A DNA stretch of 64,000 bases from positions 2,770,001 to 2,834,000 of the forward strand of contig NZ_CP042593.1 in assembly GCF_007995155.1 (NCBI RefSeq), read 5' to 3'. Under the pieces are notes generated by a model. It did no database searches, had not been told where the DNA came from, and worked only from the letters and a program-made list of their open reading frames with translations. This DNA comes from Cytobacillus dafuensis (GTDB lineage: Bacteria; Bacillota; Bacilli; Bacillales; Cytobacillaceae). Shown one piece after another: positions 6,234 to 60,434 of this stretch. A program made the translations under genes and the position numbers. Positions within the stretch are counted from its first letter, which is position 1. Each line of letters begins with the position of its first letter.

Positions 6234-6368
6234 ATGGATTTTTTACCACGAGAGCAAATAATGAACGATTTACAAAAACCACTTCAATCTTATATAGTTC
6301 AATTCGGTATAGAAGATATCGGTATTTTTGAGGAAGAAAGTCAGGAGGAACTAAAAAGACCGTCATGA
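6234..6368 (+). CDS. Small acidic hypothetical protein
   Basis: A 44-residue frame starting at an ATG with GAGGTAA seven bases upstream. The product is acidic and not membrane-like (MDFLPREQIMNDLQ near the start, EEESQEEL near the end). Its last bases overlap the terminator hairpin of the converging microcompartment operon. I do not recognise it; it may be a gene fragment. Confidence 0.3.
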   Translation: MDFLPREQIMNDLQKPLQSYIVQFGIEDIGIFEEESQEELKRPS

Positions 6369-6391
6369 ACGATAGAACATGATGATCTTTT
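6354..6391 (-). terminator. Probable terminator of the microcompartment operon
   Basis: Imperfect hairpin (AAAAGACCGTCATG against CATGATGATCTTTT, 12 of 14 positions complementary) followed on the minus strand by a T-rich run. It lies six bases beyond the stop codon of the last operon gene. Confidence 0.6.
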
Positions 6392-6396
6392 CTTAG

Positions 6397-7122
6397 TTAA
6401 AATTCAATTGAACGATAATCATAAGGGTCTATTTTCTTTAACATGACAAGCTCCTGTTCAGTTGGTTCAGGCGTAAATTTAATTTCATCGTACAGTAACT
6501 CAAAGCCAGTGTTATCCCTTACTTCTTCAAAACTCGATGTAGGGTGAATGCTTTCTAGATAGAGTTTCCCTTTTCGAAATTCAAACACGCAAAGAGGGGT
6601 GACAATTTTCCATAAGTTCCCTCTAGTTGTTGTAAAGTCAACCTGTTCAACAAAGGTTCTTTTGTCATGTTTGACTCTCCAAATAATAGCTTTTTTTGCA
6701 GTAGGAATTAGAACAGCACTTCCAGCACCACCTGGCAGTCTAACCTTTGGTTTATGATAATCACCAATAACCGATGCATTTACATTTCCATTTATATCAA
6801 ATTGAATCCCGCCAAGAAAGGCAACATCTAATTTCCCGCGCATAGACAGGTCAAACACCTCTTCTAATGGGAAATAGGCCTCAGCAGTACCCAATAAATC
6901 GGCGCCTGCAGACGAATAGGATGCATTTTTGATCGAGCTAGGATTCACACCGCCAGGAATATTTAAATGTACTAATTCTGGAGCATGCATCGATTTAGCT
7001 AACTTCATAGCAACCATTGGCAGGTGTGAGGAGACGCCATGAAAGACAGTTTCGTTATCTTGAAGCATATTCGAAATACAGCAAGTCATAATATCACTTA
7101 CTCTATACTCTTTATTCCTCAT
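6397..7122 (-). CDS. CoA-transferase, beta subunit (GctB/IpdB-like)
   Basis: Second subunit of a family I CoA-transferase that swaps CoA between an acyl-CoA and a free acid. 241 residues, typical for the family. It carries HLNIPGGVNP, the SSAGAD segment, DVAFLGGIQFDINGN and the LPGGAGSA loop of the glutaconate/3-oxoacid CoA-transferase beta fold. It overlaps its partner alpha subunit by four bases (ATGA), so the two are translationally coupled. As the last gene of the microcompartment operon it probably handles an acyl-CoA made by the aldehyde dehydrogenase, but the acid and acyl group are not deducible. No encapsulation-type tail is seen, so it is probably cytosolic. Confidence 0.85.
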   Translation of the reverse strand: MRNKEYRVSDIMTCCISNMLQDNETVFHGVSSHLPMVAMKLAKSMHAPELVHLNIPGGVNPSSIKNASYSSAGADLLGTAEAYFPLEEVFDLSMRGKLDVAFLGGIQFDINGNVNASVIGDYHKPKVRLPGGAGSAVLIPTAKKAIIWRVKHDKRTFVEQVDFTTTRGNLWKIVTPLCVFEFRKGKLYLESIHPTSSFEEVRDNTGFELLYDEIKFTPEPTEQELVMLKKIDPYDYRSIEF

Positions 7123-7967
7123 AAAGCTCTCCCCATCCTTTCTCCAATATAATCTCTTGACTCATAATCTTTCAGGTACATTTTGATTTCGTCCTTGCTC
7201 TCCATTTTTATAAACGAGGTAATTGACTTATCATCAATCTCATATTTTTTATAACAGGATGCAGGTGCAGCACCTTTTGGTACATGAACAACAGAGTGAA
7301 CTAAGAATCCTGGAATATCGATTCGATCTGCATTTAATTTTGTTTTGCTCTCCGGAACAATCTGTTCGGTTGTAATAATCACTTTGTTTGCTGCTCGGCT
7401 TATAAGGACATCCTCAAATTTAGGACCATAAATAATGGCATTTCCTTTTTCATCACATTCATGTACATGAATAATGGCAACATCAGGTACAAGTGATTTA
7501 ACAAGTGTAATCGGTTCCCCGCTAAACGGATCCTCTACAACGACAAAGTAATCATTCTTCACTAATAAATCACCGGCATTAAGTCCTTTTACAGGCATAA
7601 ATGGCACATTCATTGCCGCGCCTCGTAGTGCGCATATCACCGTATAGCAAGCATGTTCATTTCCTTTTATCTTCCCAGTCTGTACCCCTTTACGATAATG
7701 GTTTGCTAACCCATATTTCGTCTCGTAGCTTACAAATCCTGCATCAACCGATTCTATACAATCCATGGAGCACAGTAAATCAATATCCTGAGCACCTGCT
7801 GTTTTCACTACCTTTAGTGATTTCTTATTTTGCCTGGCTATTTCTCGGACAGCTGCCATTGGTGCCCGATGAAGAACATTTCCCCCAAACGAAATGGTAT
7901 CTCCATCCTTAATGATCTGAATTGCTTCTTTCAAGCTTTTAACCTTTTTGATATTGGCCACCTCCAT
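7119..7967 (-). CDS. CoA-transferase, alpha subunit (GctA/IpdA-like)
   Basis: First subunit of the heteromeric CoA-transferase, 282 residues. The N-terminus has DGDTISFGGNVLHRAP, the glycine-rich family I motif; later come LRGAAMNVPFMPVKGLNAGD and DVAIIHVHECDEKGNA, as in glutaconate CoA-transferase subunit A. The ATG at 7967 has only a weak upstream site. A strong GGAGGTG lies inside the first codons, so the exact start is uncertain. It is separated from the flavoprotein gene upstream by 88 bases and coupled to the beta subunit downstream. CoA-transferases are not standard members of PduL-type microcompartment loci, which makes this pair informative about the product. Confidence 0.83.
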   Translation of the reverse strand: MEVANIKKVKSLKEAIQIIKDGDTISFGGNVLHRAPMAAVREIARQNKKSLKVVKTAGAQDIDLLCSMDCIESVDAGFVSYETKYGLANHYRKGVQTGKIKGNEHACYTVICALRGAAMNVPFMPVKGLNAGDLLVKNDYFVVVEDPFSGEPITLVKSLVPDVAIIHVHECDEKGNAIIYGPKFEDVLISRAANKVIITTEQIVPESKTKLNADRIDIPGFLVHSVVHVPKGAAPASCYKKYEIDDKSITSFIKMESKDEIKMYLKDYESRDYIGERMGRAL

Positions 7968-8055
7968 TTCTTAGGTGTTATCCAAGCCGTTTTCATGTAA
8001 GTTTTTATTATTAAAAAACTTAATTCTTATTACAGCCTTACTATTTTTTGAAGGA

Positions 8056-9387
8056 TTACTTTACAGCATTGCAGGCAATATGAACAGCATCCCATACTCC
8101 AGCAAAAGGGGGTGCATATACTAAATCAGTCATACCTAATTCGTCAGCTGTCATATGATTATGGATGGCAACAGCAAAAATGTCGATTCTTAATACTGCT
8201 CCCTTATTTCCAATCGCTTGTGCTCCAAGAATTCTTCTTGATCTCTTCTCACAAATCAGTTTTATCCAAATCGGGGTTTGATTCGGGTAATAACCTGGGT
8301 GGTCAGCGCTTTTCACAAAAACAGTTGTGTAGTCAATCGCTAAATTTTTTGCTTCTTCCTCTGATAACCCGGTTCGGCCCATTTCTAAGTCACAAACCTT
8401 GATGGCAGCACTGCCAAGAGTGCCAATATATTTTTGATGCTGGCCAGCTATGTTTGCACCAGCGATACGTCCACACTTATTTGCATTTGTTCCAAGTGGA
8501 ATAAAGGTGTTTTCTTCCATTACCTTATGATAAACTTGTGCACAGTCACCAGCGGAGTAAATATCCTCTATATTTGTTCTCATCTCTCTATCAACGATAA
8601 CTGCTCCGTTTTTCGCTAAAGCAATACCGGAGCCCTCTAAAAATTTTGTCGCAGGCTTTACACCAATTGAGAGAAGGACTAGATCAGCCGAGTATGTTCC
8701 CTTGTCTGTTTGAACTGCCTCTACTTTTTCTGAACCGATAAAGGCTTCTACCTTTTCCGAAAGATTTAACATGGCCCCATGCTTAACTAATTCCTTTTCA
8801 GCAAGATCAGTCAGTTCTGGATCAAAGGTTCTTAATATGCGCTCAGAGAGCTCGATTACCCTTACTCTTTTACCTTGTCTGATCATCGCTTCAACGACTT
8901 CAATTCCGATATAGCCGCCGCCGACAATCACAACATCTTGAATTTCAGGCTGCTCTGTTACTTCTTTTAAGCGAATTCCATCTTCCAATGTCTTTAATCC
9001 GTAAATATTCTTCAGCTTGATCCCAGGAAATGGCGGAACAACTGGGATCGTACCCGTCGCAATCATCAGCTTGTCATAGCTATCTATAAAAAGCTTGTTT
9101 TTGACAAGGTCCTTTATCATGACTTGCTTCTTTTCCGGCACGACTTTAACAACCTCGTGCTGAAGAAAAAGTTCCATTCCCATTTCTTCAAATTGTTCCT
9201 TTGTTCTAGCAATCATTTTCGTATAATCATCATTTTCCCCAGATACATAGTATGGAAGCCCGCATGCTCCATATGACAAAAATCTGCCCTTTTCATAGAC
9301 AACAATTTGTGCATCTTTATTTAATCTTTTTAGTTTAGAGGCAGCAGACATACCCGCTGCTACCCCCCCAATCACTATTAACTTCAT
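8056..9387 (-). CDS. CoA-disulfide reductase / NADH oxidase-family flavoprotein
   Basis: FAD- and NAD(P)H-dependent pyridine nucleotide-disulfide oxidoreductase of 443 residues, the normal length. Visible are the FAD motif VIGGVAAGMSAA at the N-terminus, the single redox cysteine in SYGACGLPYYVSG (about residue 42), the NAD-binding VVIVGGGYIGIEVVEAM near 150 and the YSAGDCA FAD motif near 275. Single-cysteine members reduce CoA disulfide or oxidise NADH with oxygen. Its position inside the operon suggests it recycles NADH made by the aldehyde dehydrogenase or protects the CoA pool; no alcohol dehydrogenase is present in the operon to do the former. The start has TAGGAG ten bases upstream. Confidence 0.85.
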   Translation of the reverse strand: MKLIVIGGVAAGMSAASKLKRLNKDAQIVVYEKGRFLSYGACGLPYYVSGENDDYTKMIARTKEQFEEMGMELFLQHEVVKVVPEKKQVMIKDLVKNKLFIDSYDKLMIATGTIPVVPPFPGIKLKNIYGLKTLEDGIRLKEVTEQPEIQDVVIVGGGYIGIEVVEAMIRQGKRVRVIELSERILRTFDPELTDLAEKELVKHGAMLNLSEKVEAFIGSEKVEAVQTDKGTYSADLVLLSIGVKPATKFLEGSGIALAKNGAVIVDREMRTNIEDIYSAGDCAQVYHKVMEENTFIPLGTNANKCGRIAGANIAGQHQKYIGTLGSAAIKVCDLEMGRTGLSEEEAKNLAIDYTTVFVKSADHPGYYPNQTPIWIKLICEKRSRRILGAQAIGNKGAVLRIDIFAVAIHNHMTADELGMTDLVYAPPFAGVWDAVHIACNAVK

Positions 9388-9506
9388 AGCCAGCGTCTCC
9401 TACATTCAATTTGCACGATCTTCGTTTCCAAAAGGATCGATTTTTGAATACTTGGGTCAATGTACGTGATAACTTCAGGATAACTAACAACAAGGACCCA
9501 TTTTTA

Positions 9507-9791
9507 TTATTGTTTCATGCCAGCTGTATTACTCACGTTAATGGACGGTTTTTCATCTATAAGTCCTACTACAAGAGCATCAATAGGAGTATCTTTGATT
9601 AAGGCATGCTGAGCAGCTTCTCCTCTCGAAACTAAAACTAGCTCTCCTTCACCAGCGCCTAGTTCATCTGCTGCTACAAAGTAGTCGTCCTTACTACCAA
9701 AGCAAGGCTTAATAACTAAAAGCTTAAACCCTTGCAAACTATCATATTTTCTTGTGGAAACTACCTTGCTTATTACCTCGCCGATAATCAT
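9507..9791 (-). CDS. EutN/CcmL-type microcompartment vertex protein (BMC-P)
   Basis: Pentamer-forming shell protein that caps the vertices of a polyhedral microcompartment. The start MIIGEVISKVVSTRKYDSLQ matches the conserved first strand of the family, followed by CFGSKDDYFVAADELGAGEG and VLVSRGEAAQHAL. 94 residues. I chose the ATG at 9789-9791 because GGAGG lies eight bases upstream; an ATG 15 bases earlier would place that site inside the gene. The gene follows pduL almost without a gap. Only one BMC-P gene is visible, enough to close a shell. Confidence 0.9.
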   Translation of the reverse strand: MIIGEVISKVVSTRKYDSLQGFKLLVIKPCFGSKDDYFVAADELGAGEGELVLVSRGEAAQHALIKDTPIDALVVGLIDEKPSINVSNTAGMKQ

Positions 9792-9805
9792 CCTACGAAC
9801 CTCCA

Positions 9806-10468
9806 TTAATCAGCTATTATTTTTAGCCATTCATTTCCTTTTAAATCAAAAGCATTCGCATCATCCGTGTCAATATGCATGTCGAGTGCATAACGCTCGT
9901 TCACTCTAATCGTGACCTGTCCCATAATTCCGCCCTTTTCTCCTTCAACAAGGACGGATACCTTTTGTTTATCCTTCACTGCAAACTGGTATGCATCTTT
10001 GGGTGTCATATGTATATGCCGATCAGCAATAATACATCCTTCATTTAGGGTAAGGGAACCTATTGGTCCAATTAGAGTAATTCCTGCAGATCCTTCAATA
10101 TTCCCAGAATTTCTTACAGGAGGAGAGACGCCAATTTTTCTTGCATCAGTCCGAGAAATTTCGACCTGTGTTTGTTTCCTTAAAGGACCTAACACGCGTA
10201 CATTCTCGATGATTCCTTTAGGCCCTTTTAGTGTTACTTTTTCGTTGCACGCATATTGACCTGGCTGTGAAATATCTTTATATTTTGTAAGTTCATACCC
10301 TTTTCCGAAAAGCATCTCCACATGCTCTTGCTTAAGATGCAGATGTCGTGCAGAAATACTTACCGGAACAGAATCTTTTCTTTCTTTTTCGATCAGCTGA
10401 TGACTTTCAAGCTCTCTCACTACTAGTCTTGTAATGTTTTCTATCAGCTCAGAATGATTGTTATTCAA
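9806..10468 (-). CDS. pduL: PduL-type phosphate acyltransferase
   Basis: Microcompartment phosphotransacylase that converts acyl-CoA plus phosphate to acyl-phosphate and regenerates CoA inside the shell. The two zinc-binding motifs, ISARHLHL and IIADRHIHM, sit in the two beta-barrel halves; the linking segment LGPLRKQTQVEISRTDARKI is also typical. 220 residues. The first 25 residues (ELIENITRLVVRELESHQLI) form an amphipathic helix of the encapsulation-peptide kind, then a short linker. It lies between the shell-protein genes and the vertex protein gene, overlapping the latter region at its stop. Identification is firm from the paired His motifs. Confidence 0.93.
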   Translation of the reverse strand: MNNNHSELIENITRLVVRELESHQLIEKERKDSVPVSISARHLHLKQEHVEMLFGKGYELTKYKDISQPGQYACNEKVTLKGPKGIIENVRVLGPLRKQTQVEISRTDARKIGVSPPVRNSGNIEGSAGITLIGPIGSLTLNEGCIIADRHIHMTPKDAYQFAVKDKQKVSVLVEGEKGGIMGQVTIRVNERYALDMHIDTDDANAFDLKGNEWLKIIAD

Positions 10469-10482
10469 CTGTCATCACCAGC

Positions 10483-10758
10483 TTACTTTATGAATGGCAA
10501 TAATTTTTCAACATCAGCATGTGGTCTTGGAATAACATGTACAGCTACCAGCTCGCCTACTCTTTGTGCTGACTCTGCACCTACTTCTGTTGCCGCCTTT
10601 ACAGCACCAACTTCTCCTTGAACGATAACAGACACTAAGCCAGAACCAATTTTTTCACTGCCGACAATCTCTACATTCGCGGCCTTTAGCATGGCATCTG
10701 CTGCCTCAATTGCTGCTGTTAATCCTTTAGTTTCAATGATACCTAATGATTTGCTCAT
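10483..10758 (-). CDS. BMC-H shell protein, PduA-like (copy 1)
   Basis: Hexamer-forming shell protein of 91 residues with a single BMC domain: [20 protein letters not shown] at the start and [20 protein letters not shown] at the end, both hallmark segments. The pore loop reads KIGSGLVSV, as in PduA-type shells that pass small metabolites. It is almost the same as the next gene upstream (10814-11089), differing at only a few residues, so the two arose by recent duplication. GGAGG lies before the ATG. Confidence 0.94.
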
Positions 10759-10813
10759 GTTATTTCCTCCTAAAAATGTATATTTAAAATGGATGTATTT
10801 AAATCGTTAACAA

Positions 10814-11089
10814 TTATTTTAAGCTTGGAAGTAATTTAGAAACATCACCATGAGGTCTAGGGATTACGTGTACCGCAACAAGTTCTCCTACTCTTCCGGC
10901 TGCTTCTGCCCCAACTTCTGTAGCCGCTTTTACAGCACCGACATCACCTTGAATGATGACAGAAACTAGACCTGAGCCAATTTTTTCACTGCCGACAATC
11001 TCAACATTTGCTGCCTTTAACATAGCATCTGCTGCCTCAATTGCTGCTGTTAATCCTCTTGTTTCAATAATTCCTAAAGATCCATTCAT
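10814..11089 (-). CDS. BMC-H shell protein, PduA-like (copy 2)
   Basis: 91-residue hexameric shell protein nearly identical to the gene at 10483-10758, with changes concentrated at the ends (MNGSLG start, [10 protein letters not shown] end). The pore motif KIGSGLVSV is the same. Tandem near-identical BMC-H genes are common where a main facet protein is needed in quantity, and allow mixed hexamers. The 55-base gap to the next copy carries its own ribosome binding site. Confidence 0.94.
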
Positions 11090-11107
11090 GATAAAATCCT
11101 CCTAATA

Positions 11108-11494
11108 TTATTTTTTCTTTTTAGAAACTGTCTTTTTTTTCTTTTCTGTTTCTTCTTTTTCTTGATTCAATACTTCTAATTCTGTTCCCTCGACTTCCGC
11201 ATTTGGCTCTCGGGAAACAATATATTTCATAATCTCTGAATGAGGATTAGAAATAACAAGTGCCATTTTCAAAGGATTATTCGATTTATTTTCAGCTGCT
11301 TGCTTTGCTGCATGAACTGCAACATTCACGTCGGAAACGCTTCCACCAACAATCAAAGTAACTAATCTACCACCTAAATAATTCTCACTTGCAAGCAATT
11401 CTACATCTGAAGACTTGCACATTTGATCTAATAATTCCATTGCGACGGTAAAATACTGTGTCTCTACCACCCCAAGTGCTTCGTATGTTTTCAT
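11108..11494 (-). CDS. BMC-domain shell protein with a lysine-rich C-terminal tail
   Basis: 128 residues: a divergent single BMC domain (ALGVVETQYFTVAMELLDQM, then GGRLVTLIVGGSVSDVNVAV) followed by a roughly 35-residue tail ending in ETEKKKKTVSKKKK. The usual PRPH motif is replaced by ISNPHSEI. The pore segment ENYLGGRLVT differs from the PduA type, so its pore chemistry should differ. The highly basic tail could bind nucleic acid, acidic cargo or the membrane; this is inference. It overlaps the upstream BMC gene by four bases, so the two are co-translated. Confidence 0.87.
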   Translation of the reverse strand: MKTYEALGVVETQYFTVAMELLDQMCKSSDVELLASENYLGGRLVTLIVGGSVSDVNVAVHAAKQAAENKSNNPLKMALVISNPHSEIMKYIVSREPNAEVEGTELEVLNQEKEETEKKKKTVSKKKK

Positions 11495-11781
11495 TCTTTC
11501 CCACCTTTTTCTTCGGGATCGAGTAAACGCTCAAGACCTTCATAAGGTCTTGCAATCGCCTTAATTGCTACTACTTCACCATATCTTAAAGCGACTTCTG
11601 CTCCAATATCTAATGCTTCCTTTACAGAGGCAAGGTCTCCCCTAATGACCACCGTAATCATTCCCGATCCGGTACGTTTAATATCGTGTAGTTCTACAAA
11701 TGCAGATTTAACCATTGCATCTATACAAGCGGCAGCCGTCACATAGCCAATGACTTCAATTAGACCGAATGAACGATACAT
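11491..11781 (-). CDS. BMC-H shell protein
   Basis: 96-residue BMC-domain protein: SFGLIEVIGYVTAAACIDAM at the start, KRTGSGMITVVIRGDLASVK in the middle, VVAIKAIARPYEGLERLLDP at the end. The pore loop KRTGSGM carries an extra positive charge compared with the PduA-like copies, which may favour acidic metabolites. A short charged tail (EEKGGKE) follows. It overlaps the lysine-tailed shell gene downstream by four bases. Confidence 0.9.
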   Translation of the reverse strand: MYRSFGLIEVIGYVTAAACIDAMVKSAFVELHDIKRTGSGMITVVIRGDLASVKEALDIGAEVALRYGEVVAIKAIARPYEGLERLLDPEEKGGKE

Positions 11782-11794
11782 TCCCTACACCCCT

Positions 11795-12115
11795 TTATTT
11801 TCGCTTCACTTTTCCAATCGTAAGCAACTTAGTTATTTCTTCCATTGAAGAAGGGATGACATGAGTGAGAATATCTCCTTCGTCGATATATTTGCGTGCC
11901 TCGTATTCTGCAGCCTCAAGGGCTACTTTCACATCAGAAATTTCACCACTAAATTTCACCTGCACGACAACTGGAATAAATGCTTGATCTCCGTTTTTGG
12001 GATTATTTACATCAATCCCTTCAATCGTGACATTAGCCGCTTTACAGGCCTTGTCCATTGAGGCGAGTGCGATGCTATACCCTTGAACTTCTAAAAATCC
12101 AACTGCCTTCGACAT
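11795..12115 (-). CDS. BMC-domain shell protein with an enlarged pore loop
   Basis: Single BMC domain (AVGFLEVQGYSIALASMDKA; later VALEAAEYEARKYIDEGDIL and HVIPSSMEEITKLL). Between strands it has a longer insert, GIDVNNPKNGDQAFIPVVVQ, where ordinary BMC-H proteins have a short pore loop. This may alter or block the pore. I start it at the ATG at 12113-12115, which has AGGTGA five bases upstream; a GTG nine bases earlier overlaps that site. 106 residues. It follows the aldehyde dehydrogenase stop by nine bases and is the first shell gene of the operon. Confidence 0.87.
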   Translation of the reverse strand: MSKAVGFLEVQGYSIALASMDKACKAANVTIEGIDVNNPKNGDQAFIPVVVQVKFSGEISDVKVALEAAEYEARKYIDEGDILTHVIPSSMEEITKLLTIGKVKRK

Positions 12116-12124
12116 ATTGCTCAC

Positions 12125-13699: not shown

Positions 13700-13717
13700 A
13701 ATTCCCCTCCTCCTAAT

Positions 13718-13892
13718 CCAGCTTCAGCGCCTAGCCGCTCAGGGCCAAAGGCATCTTACTCCAGTAACAAAAAGGCAAGTCACTTGCGTAAGCTGTCTTA
13801 TGCTTGTCGCGGCTGAGCACAAAGGAAAGCATCTGCTAGTTCTCATCGCAGGAACAATTCTACTTTAATTGTTCCGAAGGCGCTTCCGCTTT
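13718..13892. repeat. Bacillus-type interspersed palindromic repeat
   Basis: The segment opens with CCAGCTTCAGCGCCTAGCCG and closes with AAGGCGCTTCCGCTT, with internal TGTCTTATGCTTGTCGCGGC. This is the pattern of an intergenic repeat I know from many Bacillus genomes, here somewhat degraded. It includes a clean hairpin (GGAACAATT / AATTGTTCC, about 13851-13875). It lies between the aldolase and aldehyde dehydrogenase genes and could influence their relative expression. Confidence 0.6.
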
Positions 13893-13901
13893 ATGTTTTT
13901 T

Positions 13902-14690
13902 CTATTTCATATAATGATTCAATACCTCTTCTGTTACCTTTCGAACAATACTCTCAATTACGGATTCTTTATTATTCGTTTGATTAATATTTACCGTTTC
14001 TTTTTCACAAGGCGGCACTCCGCCAGTTTTAATTCCCATCGATTCGCGGATATTAATTAAGTCTGATATTTGTGAACAACTTAATTCATTCGCTTTATTA
14101 ATGATGTTATTAGAGTACATAAGCATTAGCGCGTAATGTTCAAGTGATTCCATACGATAATAGGCTTGAATTAAATCCGCTCCCCATGTTAGAGCTCCAT
14201 GATTAGCTAATAGTACTGCATTGTAATCTTTGCAATAAGGTGCAATAGAATCTGGAACTTCAAATGTTCCTGGAGTGGCATATGGAGCTACAGGAACTCT
14301 ACCTAATAGGACCACCGCTTCTGGGGATATCGGTTTATCAAGGTCAATTCCAGCAATAGCAAAAGATGTAGCAACAGGTGGATGCGCATGAACAACAGCA
14401 TTTACTTCAGGATTTTCATTGTAAACCCGCAAATGCATTTTCACTTCTGAAGAAGGTTTCATTTTTCCAGAGAGAACCTTCCCTGAAAGATCCATCTTCA
14501 CCATCATATCTGGGGTCATAAAGCCTTTACTAACCCCAGTTGGAGTCGTCCAAATCGTATTAGGTCCAACCTTAACAGAAATATTTCCGTCATTAGCTGC
14601 GACAAAGTTTTTATTATATACCCTTCTGCCAATCTCACAGATTAGATTCTTTGCTTCAAAATCAGAATAGAATTTTTGTTTCTCAGCCAT
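13902..14690 (-). CDS. Class II (FucA-like) sugar-phosphate aldolase with C-terminal encapsulation peptide
   Basis: Zinc-dependent aldolase of the L-fuculose/ribulose-phosphate family, 262 residues against about 215 for FucA. Visible are AANDGNISVK (phosphate-binding loop), catalytic Glu82 in KPSSEVKMHL, zinc ligands His101 and His103 in VVHAHPPVA and His164 in LLANHGALTWG. The extra C-terminus is a linker (about 218-240) and an amphipathic helix, ESVIESIVRKVTEEVLNHYM, of the cargo-targeting type. Together with MtnK- and MtnA-like enzymes, the likely reaction is cleavage of a 5-substituted ribulose-1-phosphate to DHAP and an aldehyde, as in the DHAP shunt. First gene of the shell operon. Confidence 0.87.
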   Translation of the reverse strand: MAEKQKFYSDFEAKNLICEIGRRVYNKNFVAANDGNISVKVGPNTIWTTPTGVSKGFMTPDMMVKMDLSGKVLSGKMKPSSEVKMHLRVYNENPEVNAVVHAHPPVATSFAIAGIDLDKPISPEAVVLLGRVPVAPYATPGTFEVPDSIAPYCKDYNAVLLANHGALTWGADLIQAYYRMESLEHYALMLMYSNNIINKANELSCSQISDLINIRESMGIKTGGVPPCEKETVNINQTNNKESVIESIVRKVTEEVLNHYMK

Positions 14691-14798
14691 TAGTTACAAC
14701 TCCTTAACATGAATGCTTTCTAGTTAATTCCTACATCTATGACTTAACTATTGAGAAGTGAGTGGAATATCAGCATTCAAGTTCTTTTTCTACTTATA

Positions 14799-14827
14799 AT
14801 TTTCTTACTTTCATGTGGTTTTGTCAA
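14799..14827 (-). promoter_or_regulatory. Possible promoter of the microcompartment operon
   Basis: On the minus strand a perfect TTGACA (14822-14827) is followed after 17 bases by GAAAAT (14799-14804), a weak -10 match. A better -10 (TATAAG) lies six bases too far. It sits 109-137 bases upstream of the aldolase start. Treat as a candidate only. Confidence 0.35.
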
Positions 14828-14890
14828 ATGTTATTTTGGATTTATAGTTATTTCTTGTTGTATTTTATTGTAGTTTTACAAGAAACCAAA

Positions 14891-15000
14891 TTTATCGCAG
14901 ATTAACGGGCAGTAAGATCCCCACTTCAAGGATTCGAGTAAAACAATGAAGAGTAAGTGGGGGATCAGGAAACCTCCCCACTGATTGAAGTTTCACTTTA
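14891..15000 (+). repeat. MITE-like palindromic repeat, copy A
   Basis: 110-base element bounded by TTTATCGCAGATTAACGGGC on the left and GAAGTTTCACTTTA on the right, with internal CCCCACTT / AAGTGGGG palindromes. A longer copy lies at 27922-28079 and a shortened inverted copy at 15891-15943. It has no coding capacity, as expected of a non-autonomous mobile element. Confidence 0.75.
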
Positions 15001-15067
15001 AACGTATTTAGCAGCCCTTTTCCTTATTGTTCAGCGAAAATCGACCCATAAATTTTTTGGAGGTCAC

Positions 15068-15096
15068 TTATTAAATACCACACAATATGCTATAAT
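15068..15096 (+). promoter_or_regulatory. Probable sigma-A promoter of the DeoR-family gene
   Basis: TTATTA (15068-15073), a 17-base spacer and a perfect TATAAT (15091-15096), ending 35 bases before the start codon. Confidence 0.55.
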
Positions 15097-15131
15097 ATTT
15101 TTTAAAAACAAATAAAATTAAGGAGAAAATC

Positions 15132-15893
15132 ATGCTTCCAATAGCACGAAAGAAAAAAATAAAAGAAATCATACTAGAAAAAAAGAGTGTTACTGTTGCC
15201 GAACTCACTATTCAATTTAATGTGACAGAGGAGACTATACGGAGGGATTTAAAGCAGCTTGAGGAAGAAGGTGTTTTAACTAGAACTTACGGTGGTGCTT
15301 TTATTTCAGATGGAGTTCAAAACGATGTTAATGTGAATATAAGAGAACATATCCATGTAGAAGGGAAAAGAAAAATTGCAGCAACATGCATTTCCACAAT
15401 TAAAAATGGTGATTCCATTTTCTTAGATGCCTCCACAACTTCTCTTGTTATTGCTAGTATGCTTGAGGATAAAAAATTGACTGTTGTTACGAACTCACTT
15501 AAAGTTATTAATACTCTTGTAGAAAAACCCAATATTAACATTGTTGTAATTGGAGGTACTTTATCTCCAACCTCCCTATCAAACACTGGAAGAAGCTCGG
15601 AGTATACACTAAAGCACTATTTCTTTGACACCGCTTTCATTTCATGCCGTTCAGTCAGTATGCAGCATGGCATTACGGATTCTAACGAACAACAAGCAGG
15701 AATCCGAAAATTAGCCGCAGAGCACGCCAACAATGTTTTCCTTATTGCTGACTATACCAAATTTGACAAAACTTCTTTTGCAAGAATATGTGATTTTGAC
15801 AAAATAAATAATGTCGTAGTAGATAAAACCCTTTCATCAGAATGGAAGCAATTCTTAAAAGAACAAAATGTAACACTCTATGAATGCGAATAA
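15132..15893 (+). CDS. DeoR-family transcriptional regulator
   Basis: 253-residue sugar-phosphate-responsive repressor. The N-terminal winged helix has TVAELTIQFNVTEETIRRDL, the canonical DeoR recognition pattern, then GVLTRTYGGAF. The C-terminal DeoRC sensor domain shows FLDASTTSLVIASML and VVTNSLKVI. It is divergent from the microcompartment operon and converges on the mtnA-like gene, so it probably controls both by sensing a pathway sugar-phosphate. AAGGAG lies seven bases before the ATG. The stop codon TAA at 15891-15893 is the first three bases of an inverted MITE-like repeat, and copy A lies 130 bases upstream, so the gene is bracketed by inverted repeat ends. Confidence 0.9.
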   Translation: MLPIARKKKIKEIILEKKSVTVAELTIQFNVTEETIRRDLKQLEEEGVLTRTYGGAFISDGVQNDVNVNIREHIHVEGKRKIAATCISTIKNGDSIFLDASTTSLVIASMLEDKKLTVVTNSLKVINTLVEKPNINIVVIGGTLSPTSLSNTGRSSEYTLKHYFFDTAFISCRSVSMQHGITDSNEQQAGIRKLAAEHANNVFLIADYTKFDKTSFARICDFDKINNVVVDKTLSSEWKQFLKEQNVTLYECE

Positions 15894-15943
15894 AGTGAAA
15901 CTTCCATCAGTGGGGGTCTCACTGCCCGTTAATCTGCGATAAA
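15891..15943 (-). repeat. MITE-like palindromic repeat, shortened inverted copy B
   Basis: Reads TAAAGTGAAACTTCCATCAG at its left and CTGCCCGTTAATCTGCGATA at its right, the exact ends of copy A in reverse orientation with the middle deleted (53 bases instead of 110). The first three bases form the stop codon of the DeoR-family gene. Confidence 0.75.
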
Positions 15944-16065
15944 TTCATGAGTATTTTCTCTAAATCTAGTATGTAAATGTTGCCGGCATCATTTCGCTGC
16001 GATGGTGATAACTTTGTCCATCAAGGCTTGCCCGTGCAAATCTAACTACAATTTTATTTCATATA

Positions 16066-16101
16066 AAGAGGCTGAGTTGTCATTGAACTCAGCCCTTTCT
16101 T
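16066..16101 (-). terminator. Terminator after the mtnA-like gene
   Basis: Hairpin GGCTGAGTT / AACTCAGCC with a seven-base loop, followed on the minus strand by TCTTTAT. It ends three bases from the stop codon of the isomerase gene. Confidence 0.7.
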
Positions 16102-16103
16102 TC

Positions 16104-17174
16104 TTATTTATTGCTTTGGAACATTTTCGGAAGGGTCTCATTAAATGGCGCATAAGCAATTCCATTTTCGGTAATGATCCCTGTAATCAAAGAATGATCG
16201 GTTACATCAAAGCAAGGATTATACGTCTTTACATCTTTCGGTGCCATCGGTTTTTCATACCATTTGCTAGTAATCTCCTCTGACGGCCTTAATTCGATAT
16301 GAATATCTTCTCCTGTTTTGCATTCTAAATCGACTGTAGAAAGCGGTGCACATACGTAAAATGGAATATTGTAGTGCTTAGCTAAAATCGCTACACCCGA
16401 AGTTCCAATTTTATTAGCGGTATCTCCATTTTCAGCCACTCGATCACAACCTACAAGAACAGCCTGAATTTTTCCTTCCTTCATGACAATTGAAGCCATA
16501 TTATCGCAGATTAATGTAACATCTACTCCCGCCTGCTGAAGCTCCCAGGCTGTTAGACGAGCACCTTGAAGTAAAGGTCTTGTTTCATCGGCATACACTT
16601 TAAAGTCATAACCTTTCTCCTGCCCTAAATAAATAGGTGCTAAAGCAGTACCATACTTAGCCGTTGCGATTGTTCCAGCATTACAATGGGTTAGGATTCC
16701 CCAGCCCGTCTCTAGTAATGACAATGCATACTGCCCGATAGATTCACAGATTTTTTCATCTTCCGCTCGAATCAGTTCGGCTTCTTCTTTTAAAGCAGCC
16801 TTTACTTCAGAAACATTTTTCCCTGCTTCTTTTTTTAATCTATCTTCCATTCGGTTGAGTGCCCAGAAAAGATTAACTGCAGTCGGTCTAGAGGAAGCTA
16901 AGTATTCTTTAACCTTTTTAAAATCTTCGTAAAGTGCTTCATAAGTCTCAGCATTCGACTTCTTTGTTCCTAAGTAAACACCATACGCTGCAGCAATTCC
17001 GATTGCTGGTGCTCCTCTAACTTTTAATTGATAGATAGCATCCCAAACATCTTCCATTTCTTTCAATTCTAAAAATATTGTTTCATTTGGTAATACAGTT
17101 TGGTCCAAAAGTATTAATGTGCTATTTTCATCATCTAATTTAACTGATTGTATAACTTCTACTGGATTTCCCAT
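16104..17174 (-). CDS. mtnA: MtnA-like aldose-1-phosphate isomerase (5-methylthioribose-1-phosphate isomerase family)
   Basis: Converts an aldose-1-phosphate to the matching ketose-1-phosphate in the cytosol. 356 residues with the full motif set: [14 protein letters not shown] near 52, catalytic Cys164 in [25 protein letters not shown] near 224 and catalytic Asp244 in [20 protein letters not shown] use the ATG at 17172-17174, preceded by AAGGAGG; it follows the kinase stop by one base. No other methionine-salvage genes (mtnB, mtnW, mtnX, mtnD) are near, so the ketose-phosphate presumably goes to the aldolase at 13902-14690 instead. 5-deoxyribose-1-phosphate is an equally good substrate candidate. 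Confidence 0.9.
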
Positions 17175-17175
17175 A

Positions 17176-18414
17176 TTATTCTGCCTCCTTAAGAAGCTTA
17201 GTTTCTGCTGATTGAATGACATCAATAAAGTCAGCACCCGTTTTCATATTCTCTCTATTAAGGATAAAAGTTTTTCCGATCGTCAAACAGATTTTCTCAG
17301 CTCGCACACGAGATTCTGGGTTTGAAATGGAAGTAATATCTTTTACATGCGCTAAGCCTATGATTCTTCTAATAAGCTCATGACCAGCAACAGCAGCAGT
17401 ATCTCTAATGACAGTGCCAAGATAATGCTCCTTAAATCCTTTGTATTTCGCAACATGTTCAGTTGCTTGATCATCCCAAACTCTTAAAAATTTCTCAATA
17501 AATAAATCGATAACGTCTTTAATCGTGTTTCCTAAGTAATCGAGATAATCTTTTCTTTTTATTTCATCTTCTATCGTGAATTTAGCGTTTGCATATGCAA
17601 AAATAAGATTTGCGATTACATTTCCAATATCGTATCCTGCCGGTCCGTAGAAAGCAAACTCCGGATCAAATACTTTAGTAGAATCTTCTTTAATAAAAAT
17701 AGAACCTGTATGCAGGTCTCCATGTATAAGGGATTGAGCATTCGTCATAAACTCGAATTTTAGCTTAGCAGTTTCGAGCTGCAATTTCTCATCTTTCCAA
17801 ATGTTTTCCTGAACAAACTCTCTTGTTCCTGGAAAAACATCATTTCGCGGGCAGTCATAAAATGGCTCTGTATACACAAGATCCTCAGAAATTTCACATA
17901 GCTCAGGGTTGATAAAGCTCTTAACTAAGGCTTTCTTTTCCTTATGCCCCATTACAACGTCAGAAGTTAATAATAAAGTATTGACTAGGAATGTAGAAAT
18001 ATGTTCTGAAAAAAGTGGGAATTTCTTATGTTCGATAAGAGCTGCTCTCATCATTTCATGATCTGATAAATCTTCCATCGTACAGCAATTCATAATTGGA
18101 TCATACTTGTATACTTCCGGTACATAGCCTGGAGCCAATTTAAATTGCAATTGTAAGATTTCACTTTCAATTCGATTTCGGTCAGGAGATAATTTAAATT
18201 CATCAGAAATACGAGCTACAGGACCAGCTTGTTTTATGATGACTGATTGCTTACTTTTCGAATCAACGACTTTAAATACATAGTTTAAATTACCGTCTCC
18301 TATTTCCTTGCATTCCAACTGTGCATCTTTTTGAAAGATATCAAGATTTGTTTTGGCGTATTCGATAGCATCTTCCTCAGTCATCGTGAAGTATTCCTTC
18401 GTAAAGTCCTTCAT
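17176..18414 (-). CDS. mtnK: MtnK-like 5-methylthioribose kinase
   Basis: ATP-dependent kinase of the APH/ChoK-like fold that phosphorylates position 1 of 5-methylthioribose or a similar 5-deoxy-sugar. 412 residues, close to the 400 of MtnK. Recognisable parts are [11 protein letters not shown] near 38 (nucleotide loop), VIIKQAGP (Lys), the catalytic loop [13 protein letters not shown] near 233 and [20 protein letters not shown] (metal-binding Asp) near 250. The start has GGAGGG. It lies between the permease and isomerase genes, so uptake, phosphorylation and isomerisation are encoded together. No SAM riboswitch is visible, unlike classic methionine-salvage operons. Confidence 0.9.
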
Positions 18415-18429
18415 AACAATCCCTCCATC

Positions 18430-19431
18430 TTATTTTTGTCTATAATAAGTTAATGCAAGTGCAAGCGCTAAAACAGTTCCTTTTACAATATCCATGGCAT
18501 AATACGGAACAGACATCATAACTAAACCATTGGATAGTATCCCGATTAATACAGCTCCAACAAAGGTACCGAAAGCATTCGGCTTACCAGCCCCTAATAC
18601 AGATAATCCAATAAATGCAGCAGCGACAGCGTCCATTAAGTAAGGTGCACCAGAATTAATCTCTGCTGTCATGACGCGAGATGCTAGAACAATTCCTCCA
18701 ATTGAAGCGAACGTAGCTGAAAGTAAATAAGCGAGAACTTTATATTTATTAACAGGAATACCTGATAATCTAGCTGCTTCCTTATTACCGCCTATTACAT
18801 ACATATAACGGCCATGCTTTGTATAATTCAAGAAAATGTGAACGACAGCAACTACCACAACCATGATGATAATGATCCAAGGCACTTGACCAATTTTTGC
18901 AAAGAAAGGCGGAATCACACCCGTTGAAAAACTTCCATCTGGCATAATCATGTTTTGCGATACTGTTGCACCTTTTGTATATGTAAGGGCAATCCCTTGA
19001 ATGATAAACATCGTAGCAAGGGTCATAAGCATATCTGGAATTTTCACTTTAACAATCATAAAAGCGTTAAAAGCTCCTACAAGCAGTCCAGCTGCTAAAG
19101 CTGCAATAATTGCGATATAAATATTTTGCGAAAACCACACAAACATGGAAACTACTACTGCATTTGATAGAGAAACAGTAGAACCAACTGATAGATCGAA
19201 TCCATCTACCGATAGGGATATCGTGATACCTATAGCAATAATGGTTACAATCGAAATAGACCTCAAAATGTTTACAATATTTGCCCCTTGAATAAAGCTT
19301 GGATTTGCAATTGTAAAGATGGCAATCAAGGCAAAGATCGTAATAATCGTTCCATATTTATATAAGAACTCAAAAAGTTCAAAGCCTTTCTTTGCAGGCT
19401 TTGTTTTCGGAACAGGATTTGCCGTGTTCAT
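18430..19431 (-). CDS. Sugar ABC transporter permease (RbsC-like)
   Basis: 333-residue integral membrane protein of the BPD_transp_2 family with eight to ten hydrophobic segments. It carries the RbsC-type signature ISLSVDGFDLSVGSTVSLSN and later GGNKEAARLSGIPVNKYKVL, the cytoplasmic loop that contacts the ATPase. It probably forms a homodimer with the ATPase encoded one base upstream and imports a ribose-like sugar delivered by the lipoprotein at 21046-22158. Confidence 0.9.
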   Translation of the reverse strand: MNTANPVPKTKPAKKGFELFEFLYKYGTIITIFALIAIFTIANPSFIQGANIVNILRSISIVTIIAIGITISLSVDGFDLSVGSTVSLSNAVVVSMFVWFSQNIYIAIIAALAAGLLVGAFNAFMIVKVKIPDMLMTLATMFIIQGIALTYTKGATVSQNMIMPDGSFSTGVIPPFFAKIGQVPWIIIIMVVVVAVVHIFLNYTKHGRYMYVIGGNKEAARLSGIPVNKYKVLAYLLSATFASIGGIVLASRVMTAEINSGAPYLMDAVAAAFIGLSVLGAGKPNAFGTFVGAVLIGILSNGLVMMSVPYYAMDIVKGTVLALALALTYYRQK

Positions 19432-19432
19432 C

Positions 19433-20941
19433 TTATTTACCTCCTGTTGAATAGAATAATAATTCTTCTTCGTTTGCTGATTTTGTTTCTAATTCTTTTG
19501 CAACTGCACCGTCATAAACAACATACACACGGTCAGTTATCCCAAGAATTTCAGAAAGCTCACTAGATGCGTAAATGACAGATTTCCCTCGTTTTGCTAA
19601 ACCAGAAATAAGTTCAAAAATATCCTTTTTAGCACCTACGTCTACACCCTTTGTAGGTTCATCAAATATGTACACTTCAGCATCTGAAATTAACCATTTA
19701 CCAATTGCTACTTTTTGTTGATTCCCACCAGAAAGATTTTGTACCTTGGTCTCTTCTGACGGTGTCTTTATCCCTAAATCTTTAATCATCTCTATAGAAA
19801 TCTTCTTTTCTCCCTTTGTGTCTACAAAGCTAAGAAACTTAGAAAACTTATTTAAGCTCGCAGATGTAAGATTAGTAGAAACAGATTCTTGAACGAGAAT
19901 CCCTTCTTTTCTTCGTTCCTCTGGTACAAGAGCAATGCCTTTTTTTACCGCATCGCTAGGATCCTTTATTTTCACACTTTTACCACGAATCTGGATCTCG
20001 CCGCTCGTTACCTTAGAAGCACCAAACAAAGCCTTACATATCTCTGTTTTACCAGCACCTACTAAGCCAGCAATCCCAACGATTTCACCCTCATTTACAT
20101 GCATACTGAAATTTTTAACTAAACCTTTATCATGAAGTCCTGTAACCTTTAGGACAGTGTCGCCAATTTCAACGTGGTACTTAGGAAATTGTTCCTCAAG
20201 CTTTTCACCAAGCATGTACTCCACAATTTTGTTTTGAGTTGTGTCAGCAATATTTTCTTTAATGACAAACTTCCCATTTTTCATAACGGTAATTTCTTCA
20301 CATATTTCAAATAACTCTGGTAATCGATGAGAAATAAAAATGATACCAACATCTTCTTTTACTAGTTCCCGAACAATTCTAAATAGTTCTTTTGTTTCAG
20401 AATGACTAAGTGGTGCAGTCGGTTCATCCAATATTAAAAACTTGCATTGCTTAGATATTGACCTTGCAATAAGAACCATTTGTTTTTCCGCTAAAGTTAA
20501 TTCACTTACAAGCTTTTTCGAGGATATATTTACATTCATCCTATTCAGTATGTCTGTTGCTTTCTTGTGAATCTGGTTCCATTTAACAAACTGTTTTTTT
20601 CCCATATCATTAACCGTTTCATTTAACATGATATTTTCTCCAACCGTTAAATATGGGATCAAAGCCGTGTCTACCTCTTGATAAACAATTTGAATACCAT
20701 TGTCCTGGGCATCTTTCGGTGTCCGTATATCGATTTTCTTTCCTTCTATGTATATTTCACCTGTATAGTGACCATAGGCTCCAGAAAGTACTTTCATTAG
20801 TGTAGATTTACCCGCCCCGTTCGCGCCTATTAGGGCATGAGTCATACCCGTTTTAGTAGAAAAAAAGACTTCATCTAACGCTTTCACACCGGGGAACTCA
20901 ATGGAAATGTTTTTCATTTCTAGTAAAATTGACACGCCCAT
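19433..20941 (-). CDS. Sugar ABC transporter ATP-binding protein (RbsA-like, two nucleotide-binding domains)
   Basis: 502-residue fused ATPase typical of ribose-type importers. First domain: Walker A GANGAGKSTLMKVLSGAY, Walker B LILDEPTAPLSHSE. Second domain: GLVGAGKTEICKALFGASK, signature LSGGNQQKVAIGKWL, Walker B YIFDEPTKGVDVGAKK. The degenerate first-domain signature (ELTLAEKQM) is normal in RbsA. The annotated ATG lies only three bases after GGAGG; a GTG two codons later has better spacing and may be the true start. A hairpin separates this gene from the binding-protein gene upstream. Confidence 0.92.
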   Translation of the reverse strand: MGVSILLEMKNISIEFPGVKALDEVFFSTKTGMTHALIGANGAGKSTLMKVLSGAYGHYTGEIYIEGKKIDIRTPKDAQDNGIQIVYQEVDTALIPYLTVGENIMLNETVNDMGKKQFVKWNQIHKKATDILNRMNVNISSKKLVSELTLAEKQMVLIARSISKQCKFLILDEPTAPLSHSETKELFRIVRELVKEDVGIIFISHRLPELFEICEEITVMKNGKFVIKENIADTTQNKIVEYMLGEKLEEQFPKYHVEIGDTVLKVTGLHDKGLVKNFSMHVNEGEIVGIAGLVGAGKTEICKALFGASKVTSGEIQIRGKSVKIKDPSDAVKKGIALVPEERRKEGILVQESVSTNLTSASLNKFSKFLSFVDTKGEKKISIEMIKDLGIKTPSEETKVQNLSGGNQQKVAIGKWLISDAEVYIFDEPTKGVDVGAKKDIFELISGLAKRGKSVIYASSELSEILGITDRVYVVYDGAVAKELETKSANEEELLFYSTGGK

Positions 20942-20997
20942 TAGCCTCCTTCCATAAAAATCAATTGGTTTCCATACTAAAGGCCTAGAATGGTATT

Positions 20998-21038
20998 GAA
21001 ACCTTATATCAGCTTAATTGCTGCTGATATAAGGTTTC
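20998..21038 (-). promoter_or_regulatory. Perfect 16-bp intercistronic hairpin
   Basis: GAAACCTTATATCAGC pairs without mismatch to GCTGATATAAGGTTTC around a nine-base loop, eight bases after the binding-protein stop. There is no T run after it on the minus strand, so an mRNA stabiliser or partial attenuator is more likely than a full terminator. It would raise binding-protein expression relative to the ATPase and permease. Confidence 0.7.
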
Positions 21039-21045
21039 ATAATTA

Positions 21046-22158
21046 TTATTTATAATATTCTTTTAATGTCTTCATCCAATCTTCTTCAAAGGCTGTTGAA
21101 ACTCCCCAGCCTTCTACAACATCAGCAAGGTTAACCATGTTAACAGGAGAGCTTGATGACTGTAATGCTTCTTGAGAAATGAGTGATGCCTCTAAGTCGT
21201 ATGTGCTAGGAGTCTCTTCTCCTGCAATTTTCTTAGCTAGAATTCTCATGTTTACAGAACCAATTAACTTCGGATCAACAGCTGCTGTATATTTCCAAGG
21301 GCTTTTTTCTTCTTGCATAATTTGAAGGTCCGCATTGGAAACATCAATTCCATACAGCGCAATCTCATCTCTTCCAGCCTCTTTTATCGCACGGGCTGCA
21401 CCAATCGCAAACGCATCCCATGTTGCAAAAATCGCATCAATTTCGCCTTTTTTATGCTTATTTAACATCGCAGCTACCGCATTTTGAGTTTGAACAGCTG
21501 TATCTGCAGCAGCTACACCAAATCTTTCTACTTCTTTAATGCCTGGATTACTCTTTAACTTCTCTTGGTATACCGCATTACGTCTTACCATAGGAGGGAA
21601 TCCATCTACCCATAAATAAACAATATTTGCTTCACCATTTGTATCCTTAATTAACTGATCTAACGCCAAGGTAGCTAATGCCTCATCGTCCTGTGAAGTA
21701 AGGGTTACTCCATTAACAGAAGCAATATCACCATTAGAGTCGAAAGTTACGACACTTTTTCCAGCATCTACAATTTTCTTAACATCCTCTACAGTAGCAG
21801 CATCATCGCCATGTGAGATGATAAATCCATCATAATTCTCATGTAATGCTTGTGCGATCGCATCATGGAACTTAGCAGTGTCGCCATTTGCAGTGAACAC
21901 ATCTACCTTAAAACCAAGTGCTTCACCTTCTTCTTTCGCACCTGCCAAAAACTGAGCTGTATGATCATCTCCACCTATTTTCCTAACAACCTTAATTTTT
22001 ACTTCTTTTCCATTTTTAAATCGATCAGGTACATTTTCAAGAGAAACATCCTTATTTCCCTCTTTAGGCTTAGAATTCGCTTCGTTAGAAGAACAGCCTG
22101 TTAATAAAAGTGCAAAAGATAAAAATAGAATTAACGCACTTTTGAAATAGCTTTTCAT
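21046..22158 (-). CDS. Sugar-binding lipoprotein of the ABC importer
   Basis: Extracellular solute receptor, 370 residues, with a lipoprotein signal (LILFLSFALLLTGC; lipobox Cys at 22) and a type I periplasmic-binding-protein fold of the ribose/galactose class: VRKIGGDDHTAQFLAGAKEE, FIISHGDDAATVEDVKKIV, VVTFDSN, YLWVDGFPPMVRRNAVY, IFATWDAFAIGAARAIKEAG. It precedes the ATPase, permease, kinase and isomerase genes and should define the sugar taken up. A close paralogue lies just upstream (22663-23787). Confidence 0.92.
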   Translation of the reverse strand: MKSYFKSALILFLSFALLLTGCSSNEANSKPKEGNKDVSLENVPDRFKNGKEVKIKVVRKIGGDDHTAQFLAGAKEEGEALGFKVDVFTANGDTAKFHDAIAQALHENYDGFIISHGDDAATVEDVKKIVDAGKSVVTFDSNGDIASVNGVTLTSQDDEALATLALDQLIKDTNGEANIVYLWVDGFPPMVRRNAVYQEKLKSNPGIKEVERFGVAAADTAVQTQNAVAAMLNKHKKGEIDAIFATWDAFAIGAARAIKEAGRDEIALYGIDVSNADLQIMQEEKSPWKYTAAVDPKLIGSVNMRILAKKIAGEETPSTYDLEASLISQEALQSSSSPVNMVNLADVVEGWGVSTAFEEDWMKTLKEYYK

Positions 22159-54123: not shown

Positions 54124-54127
54124 ATTT

Positions 54128-60429: not shown

Positions 60430-60434
60430 ATTCC

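Follow-up and report, generated by a model that had tools for sequence, protein, structure and literature searches.

A metabolosome locus of Cytobacillus dafuensis probably built on the dihydroxyacetone phosphate shunt

Gene content of the locus

The window analyzed here is a stretch of 64,000 nucleotides from Cytobacillus dafuensis (contig NZ_CP042593.1, positions 2,770,001 to 2,834,000), which lies in a single-contig genome of 4.9 Mb. It harbors a bacterial microcompartment (BMC) locus in which shell genes are found next to a class II aldolase, a kinase and an isomerase of the MtnK and MtnA types, and an ATP-binding cassette (ABC) importer. This study concerns the function of that locus and the sugar which it may serve.

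The genes are organized in two operons on the minus strand. The shell operon comprises the aldolase, an aldehyde dehydrogenase (AldDH), five BMC-domain genes, PduL, BMC-P, a flavoprotein resembling coenzyme A (CoA) disulfide reductase (CoADR-like) and two CoA-transferase subunits. Upstream of it lies the importer operon, with a substrate-binding protein, an ABC ATPase, a permease, MtnK and MtnA. A DeoR gene on the plus strand separates the two. Families were assigned by Pfam and NCBIfam profile searches; scores are given in bits, in some cases with the cut-off of the model.

6397..7122, minus strand: CoA-transferase subunit (B-like); PF01144, 76.7 bits; kept downstream of the shell genes in relatives
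7119..7967, minus strand: CoA-transferase subunit (A-like); PF01144, 77.1 bits; conserved
8056..9387, minus strand: CoADR-like flavoprotein; PRK09564, 593.9 bits, cut-off 458
9507..9806, minus strand: BMC-P shell vertex protein (EutN_CcmL); PF03319, 88.1 bits
9806..10468, minus strand: PduL phosphotransacylase with an N-terminal amphipathic extension resembling an encapsulation peptide; PF06130, 267.7 bits
10483..10758, minus strand: BMC-H shell protein; PF00936, 101.1 bits; 80 of 91 residues identical to its neighbor
10814..11089, minus strand: BMC-H shell protein; PF00936, 104.4 bits
11108..11494, minus strand: BMC-domain shell protein with a lysine-rich tail; PF00936, 67.4 bits
11491..11781, minus strand: BMC-domain shell protein; PF00936, 72.4 bits
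11795..12124, minus strand: BMC-domain shell protein, divergent; PF00936, 51.6 bits
12125..13699, minus strand: CoA-acylating AldDH with an N-terminal amphipathic extension and Cys314 in NNLLCIAE; PRK15398 subfamily, 673 bits, cut-off 403
13902..14690, minus strand: class II aldolase (Aldolase_II), proposed signature enzyme; PF00596, 183.5 bits
14883..14890, plus strand: operator-like word AAACCAAA in the aldolase/DeoR intergenic region; word count
15132..15893, plus strand: DeoR-family regulator; PF00455, 162.6 bits, and PF08220, 60.2 bits
16104..17237, minus strand: MtnA-type 5-substituted-ribose-1-phosphate isomerase; TIGR00512, 431.4 bits, cut-off 279
17176..18414, minus strand: MtnK/DrdK-type kinase; TIGR01767, 460.8 bits, cut-off 275
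18430..19431, minus strand: ABC importer permease, ribose-type; PF02653, 146.5 bits
19433..20941, minus strand: ABC importer ATPase with two domains; PF00005, two stretches
21046..22158, minus strand: importer substrate-binding lipoprotein; PF13407, 122.3 bits
22312..22319, minus strand: operator-like word AAACCAAA in the importer promoter region; word count
22663..23787, minus strand: second substrate-binding lipoprotein, 69% identical to the first; Pfam scan and comparison

The true start of MtnA probably lies downstream of the listed GTG. All genes named in the original prediction, which had been made from the letters of the window, were recovered by the profile searches: the five BMC-domain genes, BMC-P, PduL, AldDH, the class II aldolase, MtnK, MtnA and the ribose-type importer. 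Its left boundary at 6354 has to be shifted, as the last gene ends at 6397, and it had missed the CoA-transferase subunits (6397-7967), the CoADR-like flavoprotein, the DeoR gene and the second binding protein.

With BMC-domain and BMC-P shell genes, a CoA-acylating AldDH and PduL, the locus has the core set of a metabolosome. The ratio of BMC-domain to BMC-P genes is 5:1. Twenty proteins were scanned with Pfam (19 of the locus and one neighbor), and no diol dehydratase, ethanolamine ammonia-lyase or glycyl-radical enzyme was found among them, in agreement with the earlier claim that signature enzymes of this kind are missing. The catalytic landmarks are kept: E82, H101, H103 and H164 of the aldolase, which we take to be metal ligands, are invariant in 30 aligned sequences, and Cys314, presumably the catalytic cysteine, is present in the AldDH. 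The best solved relatives of the AldDH are 5jfl and 4c3s. Among named relatives with a full-length aldolase, Cytobacillus praedii is the nearest (90% identity).

Conserved linkage of the two operons

A search for aldolase homologues yielded 49 loci. Shell genes are found within the examined flanks of 17 of these, and three Clostridia loci (L037-L039) joined them after contig extension, giving 20. MtnK and MtnA are both present in the flanks of 14 of the first 17 shell loci and of 17 of the 20. Two of the three remaining loci lie at contig ends (L015, L050), and in the third (L007, genome G058) MtnK lies on that contig too, at a distance of about 50 kb. The linked loci span Bacillaceae, Paenibacillaceae and Clostridia and display two gene orders. 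In the Clostridia version, a single array on one strand runs from the aldolase through CoADR, the CoA-transferase subunits, binding protein, ATPase, permease, MtnK and MtnA to PduL, BMC-P (seen in L082), AldDH, a PduS/RnfC-like protein (assigned by eye) and the BMC-domain genes. Recurrence of this arrangement in further genera, and under another gene order, is more than chance would give. L084 was excluded, as its contig differs from that of L035 and its BMC locus is of a different kind.

Co-occurrence leads in the same direction. Of the 249 genomes examined in the order, 19 carry an MtnK with at least 63% identity and nine an AldDH with at least 57%; each of the nine belongs to the 19 (hypergeometric P 1e-11, with kinship ignored, the own genome included and the thresholds placed at gaps in the match lists after these had been seen).

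The promoters provide a further connection. The word AAACCAAA occurs in 13 of 20 aldolase promoters, in 13 of 20 importer promoters and in both at 10 of the 20 loci, against a background of 0.06 per 450 bp derived from the loci as a whole; the set consists of the window and 19 loci, of which L003 and L018 are without a shell. It is found in none of 12 importer promoters of methionine-salvage loci and in one of two DrdA-linked ones. A best-local-alignment comparison of the two promoters gave values at or near the shuffled background in most loci. The word count was chosen after this simpler comparison, so its significance is exploratory and the result suggestive. Different inducers for the two operons had been named beforehand as an observation that would speak against a common pathway; at the motif level, both promoters share the word. 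Taken with the linkage, the single Clostridia array and the co-occurrence, it supports the earlier claim that the shell operon and the importer-MtnK-MtnA operon are functionally tied and serve one pathway, as far as genome comparison can tell.

The aldolase tail and encapsulation

The aldolase carries a C-terminal tail. In the predicted model (mean pLDDT 90.6), a confident core extends to residue 217 and is followed by a linker with pLDDT below 50 at residues 232-239 and a helix at 238-261. No other 18-mer of the protein has a hydrophobic moment as high as the one starting at residue 245. Such a succession of core, disordered linker and helix corresponds to the encapsulation-peptide layout described in PMC12339742. 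The N-terminal stretch of PduL (residues 3-20) likewise ranks first in its protein by hydrophobic moment, and that of the AldDH ranks second. Tails, judged by eye, are present in 20 of 20 shell loci and in 16 of 27 other evaluable loci, 11 being tailless (Fisher p 0.001). L031 and L042 have a truncated aldolase and were excluded from these counts and, together with L050, from the aldolase tree. On this modeled architecture, the aldolase is likely encapsulated in the shell.

In eight loci (L014, L016, L017, L020, L021, L023, L024 and L025) the CoADR-like flavoprotein adjoins a tailed aldolase, with no shell, AldDH or PduL gene within the examined flanks. Because these neighbors persist in shell-less loci, the flavoprotein may have its role with the aldolase and not with the shell. 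Aldolases with 63% (L044) and 47% (L048) identity to that of the window have, by eye, FGGY-like kinases and sugar ABC importers beside them instead of MtnK and MtnA; membership in this aldolase family is thus not enough to define the substrate.

Kinase, importer and identity of the sugar

The window kinase is the only MtnK match in its own genome. In a quick, midpoint-rooted tree, the window kinase falls into a group of 66 rows together with DrdA-linked kinases (SH-aLRT 100), while ten rows, eight of them mtnW-linked, lie outside. L081-L083 were left out of this tree, being extensions of L037-L039. The identity of DrdA was shown for one DrdA-linked row, L112, which scores 374 bits to 6btd. DrdK of Bacillus thuringiensis uses both 5-deoxyribose and 5-methylthioribose as substrates, and its specificity constants for the two are similar (PMC6079011).

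Within the 66-row group, two sets of six and four rows adjoin mtnW. In seven of the nine mtnW-adjacent loci with an MtnK of at least 63% identity, MtnK is preceded by the same set of importer genes (binding protein, ATPase and permease), and the binding proteins there are 67-72% identical to that of the window. Methionine salvage uses only methylthioribose, hence importer and kinase must presumably accept this sugar in the salvage loci; as such close relatives of the module adjoin methionine-salvage genes, methylthioribose is also a likely imported substrate in the window. A S-adenosylmethionine (SAM) riboswitch is present in all seven of these nine mtnW-adjacent loci that were scanned. It was detected in one of seven scanned shell-linked loci (L090, upstream of the importer), and the Rfam scan of the window returned no matches, SAM riboswitches included. 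The best solved relatives of the window binding protein are 5ulb (353 bits) and 4ry8 (177 bits), the latter presumably a methylthioribose complex. In enterobacteria and Bacillus cereus, mtrACB is regarded as the probable methylthioribose importer (PMC3228920).

The own genome contains MtnN and has no match to MtnW, for which a Bacillus subtilis control was positive. MtnW is missing in six of the nine shell genomes of the order sample, the own genome included, and present in ten of ten shell-less genomes with a kinase of the same group (Fisher p 0.003). A plain methionine-salvage operon was thus rejected, there being no MtnW in the genome. DNA-derived 2-deoxyribose, the substrate of the SPU type, was rejected as well because neither DeoC nor RpiB is among the scanned proteins. 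We favor a dual or methylthioribose-leaning substrate range, with 5-deoxyribose alone less likely. The original prediction had called the compartment apparently dedicated to 5-deoxypentose salvage: this fits the locus itself, but kinase and isomerase, and usually the importer, have close relatives beside methionine-salvage genes.

The second binding protein has, as its immediate upstream neighbor, a gene for a methyl-accepting chemotaxis protein (window 22663-25591), which suggests chemotaxis towards the same sugar.

Proposed pathway

From the observed genes, families, linkage, co-occurrence, promoter word and tail architecture, we infer the following scheme of enzyme activities, encapsulation, substrate and regulation: the locus probably encodes a metabolosome built on the dihydroxyacetone phosphate (DHAP) shunt, with a 5-deoxypentose as substrate. 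The ABC importer would take in 5-methylthioribose, 5-deoxyribose or both, and cleavage of internal methylthioadenosine or 5′-deoxyadenosine by MtnN may add further sugar. MtnK would phosphorylate C1, and MtnA would isomerize the product to a 5-substituted ribulose-1-phosphate. Both steps are placed in the cytosol; by eye, the two enzymes have no obvious targeting extension. The ketose phosphate would then cross the shell, inside which the class II aldolase, anchored through the helix at its C-terminus, would generate DHAP and a C2 aldehyde. While DHAP would exit, acetaldehyde or 2-methylthioacetaldehyde would be retained, converted to acyl-CoA by the AldDH and to acyl-phosphate by PduL, with recycling of CoA.

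For aldol cleavages of this kind, an equilibrium constant of about 1e-4 is typical (PMC6079011), so the ketose phosphate is strongly favored. Removal of the aldehyde on the spot could pull this equilibrium, keep a volatile compound inside and limit its toxicity. The DeoR protein might repress both operons until a phosphorylated intermediate builds up, in the manner of Escherichia coli MtnR, a DeoR-family repressor of DHAP-shunt genes (PMC12632272). The CoADR-like flavoprotein also scores against NADH oxidase models and is a candidate factor for NAD+ recycling in Bacillales; in the Clostridia version, a protein that by eye resembles PduS is encoded.

A more specific version of the scheme is put forward tentatively, as we hold it possible but somewhat short of an even chance. 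Imported 5-methylthioribose would pass through the encapsulated DHAP shunt, 2-methylthioacetaldehyde would be sequestered, and methylthioacetyl-CoA and methylthioacetyl-phosphate would be the products. The importer-kinase-isomerase module would have been exchanged between methionine salvage, under SAM riboswitch control, and shell-based catabolism, under DeoR control.

If the scheme is true, it would supply a concrete substrate for a type of metabolosome on which the published literature offers no more than a guess, and it would tie microcompartments to the disposal of by-products of S-adenosylmethionine and of radical-SAM chemistry. The prediction is directly testable with methylthioribose and 5-deoxyribose. 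A natural comparison is available among close relatives, which share the kinase, isomerase and aldolase and of which some have a shell and others do not.

Weighing of alternative explanations

Several observations weigh against this scheme. Many relatives have the kinase-isomerase-aldolase set but no shell, so the shunt does not depend on one. Any MtnK at all is found in 134 of the 249 genomes, a base on which the nine-of-nine co-occurrence would be far weaker evidence; the shell version is present in nine of these 134 in the Bacillales-type order sample. In a sample of 342 Clostridia genomes, 15 have MtnK at the threshold and one of the 15 (G021) has a shell at the locus; of the others, four have a three-gene cluster with a tailed aldolase in a genome free of shell genes, and eight have a DrdA-like aldolase nearby. 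With so few MtnK genomes having a shell, the shell version is a minority form of a wider shunt. MtnW is present in three of the nine order-sample shell genomes and in four of 14 named ones (missing in ten, some of them drafts), and due to this co-existence the shell route is no simple replacement of methionine salvage. No alcohol dehydrogenase for NAD+ recycling is found among the 20 scanned proteins, and the pathway as proposed leaves the roles of the CoA-transferase and the CoADR-like protein unexplained. Finally, the association of tail and shell is not significant in a phylogenetic pair test (five supported pairs, p 0.5-1). Of nine genomes searched for PF00936, seven that carry a tailed aldolase gave no match (G621, G474, G413, G510, G055, G258 and G106), and the same holds in a separate search for G003 and G029 (G010 of that search is the species of G258); the tail alone is therefore no proof of encapsulation.

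These last results are what favors an unencapsulated aldolase, whose tail would serve assembly or condensation while the shell handles only the aldehyde that diffuses in. The match of core, linker and helix to the described encapsulation-peptide layout, the tails in all 20 shell loci and the similar N-terminal helices of AldDH and PduL speak against this arrangement, and we consider it unlikely. Slightly more credible, although still on the doubtful side, is a shell for the disposal of 5-deoxyribose rather than methylthioribose. Its product, acetaldehyde, is a classic metabolosome intermediate, AldDH, PduL and CoA-transferase would suit acetyl units, and the kinase group includes the DrdK type. 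However, the importer resembles the probable methylthioribose importers mtrACB by context (PMC3228920), and relatives of the module are neighbors of mtnW in two of the groups in the kinase tree. All seven such loci that were scanned have a SAM riboswitch, and one of seven shell loci, L090, has one as well.

Much less probable are the explanations which dissociate the shell from the kinase and isomerase. An ordinary PVM-like compartment for 6-deoxyhexose phosphates would split fuculose- or rhamnulose-1-phosphate into DHAP and lactaldehyde, MtnK and MtnA being chance neighbors. Class II aldolases are indeed described as promiscuous, but no fucose or rhamnose isomerase and no FGGY kinase were found among the 20 proteins, and the retention of MtnK and MtnA in most shell loci, across three bacterial groups and two gene orders, makes this very improbable. 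We assign an equally slight chance to two unrelated adjoining operons, one for methylthioribose import and salvage and the other for a shell with another substrate. The two are separate transcription units with DeoR in between, about 50 kb separate them in G058, and related MtnK-MtnA modules, mostly with the importer, adjoin methionine-salvage genes in shell-less genomes; yet the collinear Clostridia array, the nine-of-nine co-occurrence, the common promoter word and the contrasting distribution of MtnW in shell and shell-less genomes all connect them.

Relation to known systems

The metabolosome proposed here is a variant of known aldolase-based metabolosomes. It resembles the published PVM-like loci (Axen 2014; Sutter 2021) in its PF00596 class II aldolase and its DeoR regulator, the latter found in most of them. 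For PVM-like loci the printed guess is a fucose/rhamnose-like substrate, and later papers consider a PVM-like substrate likely (PMC8156839, PMC8217296); here, in contrast, the conserved MtnK-MtnA-importer operon points to 5-deoxypentoses. A core alcohol dehydrogenase is found in only one published PVM-like locus. The PVM fucose/rhamnose compartment also employs a class II aldolase, which releases DHAP and an aldehyde for the AldDH, but by a hexose rather than a pentose route and with a C3 rather than a C2 aldehyde. It has more BMC-P genes than the one found here beside five BMC-domain genes, and neither acetate kinase nor a lactate/malate-dehydrogenase-like gene is among the scanned proteins of our locus. 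A fucose/rhamnose compartment was rejected as no matching kinase or isomerase lies in the locus.

The DHAP shunt and drd clusters (B. thuringiensis drdKIA, E. coli mtnK-mtnA-ald2) share the linked kinase, isomerase and class II aldolase, the grouping of the window kinase with DrdA-linked kinases and, in E. coli, DeoR control. They differ in that shell, AldDH and PduL are added here and in that the aldolase, with its C-terminal helix, belongs to another subfamily (82 bits to 6btd, about 30% identity to DrdA-type rows). In the SPU type an aldolase also splits a sugar phosphate to an aldehyde, but the enzymes are DeoC (pfam01791) and RpiB (pfam02502). ACI loci have a C-terminal encapsulation peptide on a pfam00596 aldolase (PMC8217296); unlike our locus, they are confined to Acidobacteria, with a BMC-P triplet and the AldDH elsewhere. 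Canonical methionine salvage shares MtnK, MtnA and often a related importer, whereas the MtnW-free aldolase route here would lead to carbon catabolism and not to methionine.

No paper in the searched collection combines microcompartments with 5-deoxyribose or with the DHAP shunt, and among the matches listed by broader searches none connects microcompartments with these sugars or with S-adenosylmethionine by-products, as judged from titles and the openings of abstracts; subscription papers and supplements lay outside the search. Within these limits, the assignment of a 5-deoxypentose substrate to a metabolosome appears new. A paper on Acetobacterium woodii terms a neighboring methylthioribose kinase gene unrelated to BMC function (PMC7593272).

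Additional observations

Four Clostridia genomes (L128-L131) have MtnK, MtnA and a tailed aldolase with no shell gene in the genome. In L128, the only one with its neighbors read, the cluster lies directly downstream of genes which by eye resemble those of cobalamin biosynthesis, a context that suggests clean-up of 5′-deoxyadenosine from adenosylcobalamin. By eye, L142 (5083-10593) combines MtnA and a tailed aldolase with genes resembling those of a nucleoside phosphorylase and a GntR regulator. Its genome is without an MtnK match, and the locus is possibly a phosphorylase version of the shunt.

Elsewhere in the window, an iron-containing alcohol dehydrogenase is split over two open frames at 32961-34160 (PF00465, PF25137), probably a broken gene or a sequencing error. 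A type III CRISPR-Cas region at 50998-63849 encodes Cas10/Csm1, a RAMP protein and a Csm6-like HEPN protein; a neighbor of 1041 amino acids in this region has no Pfam match at 1e-5. The own genome also contains a second, different BMC locus at about 2.314-2.327 Mb, with BMC-domain genes, BMC-P, a 329-amino-acid protein whose start resembles an encapsulation peptide, and genes named by eye as amidohydrolase-, isochorismatase- and UbiX/UbiD decarboxylase-like. It resembles the published BUF type without aldehyde dehydrogenase.

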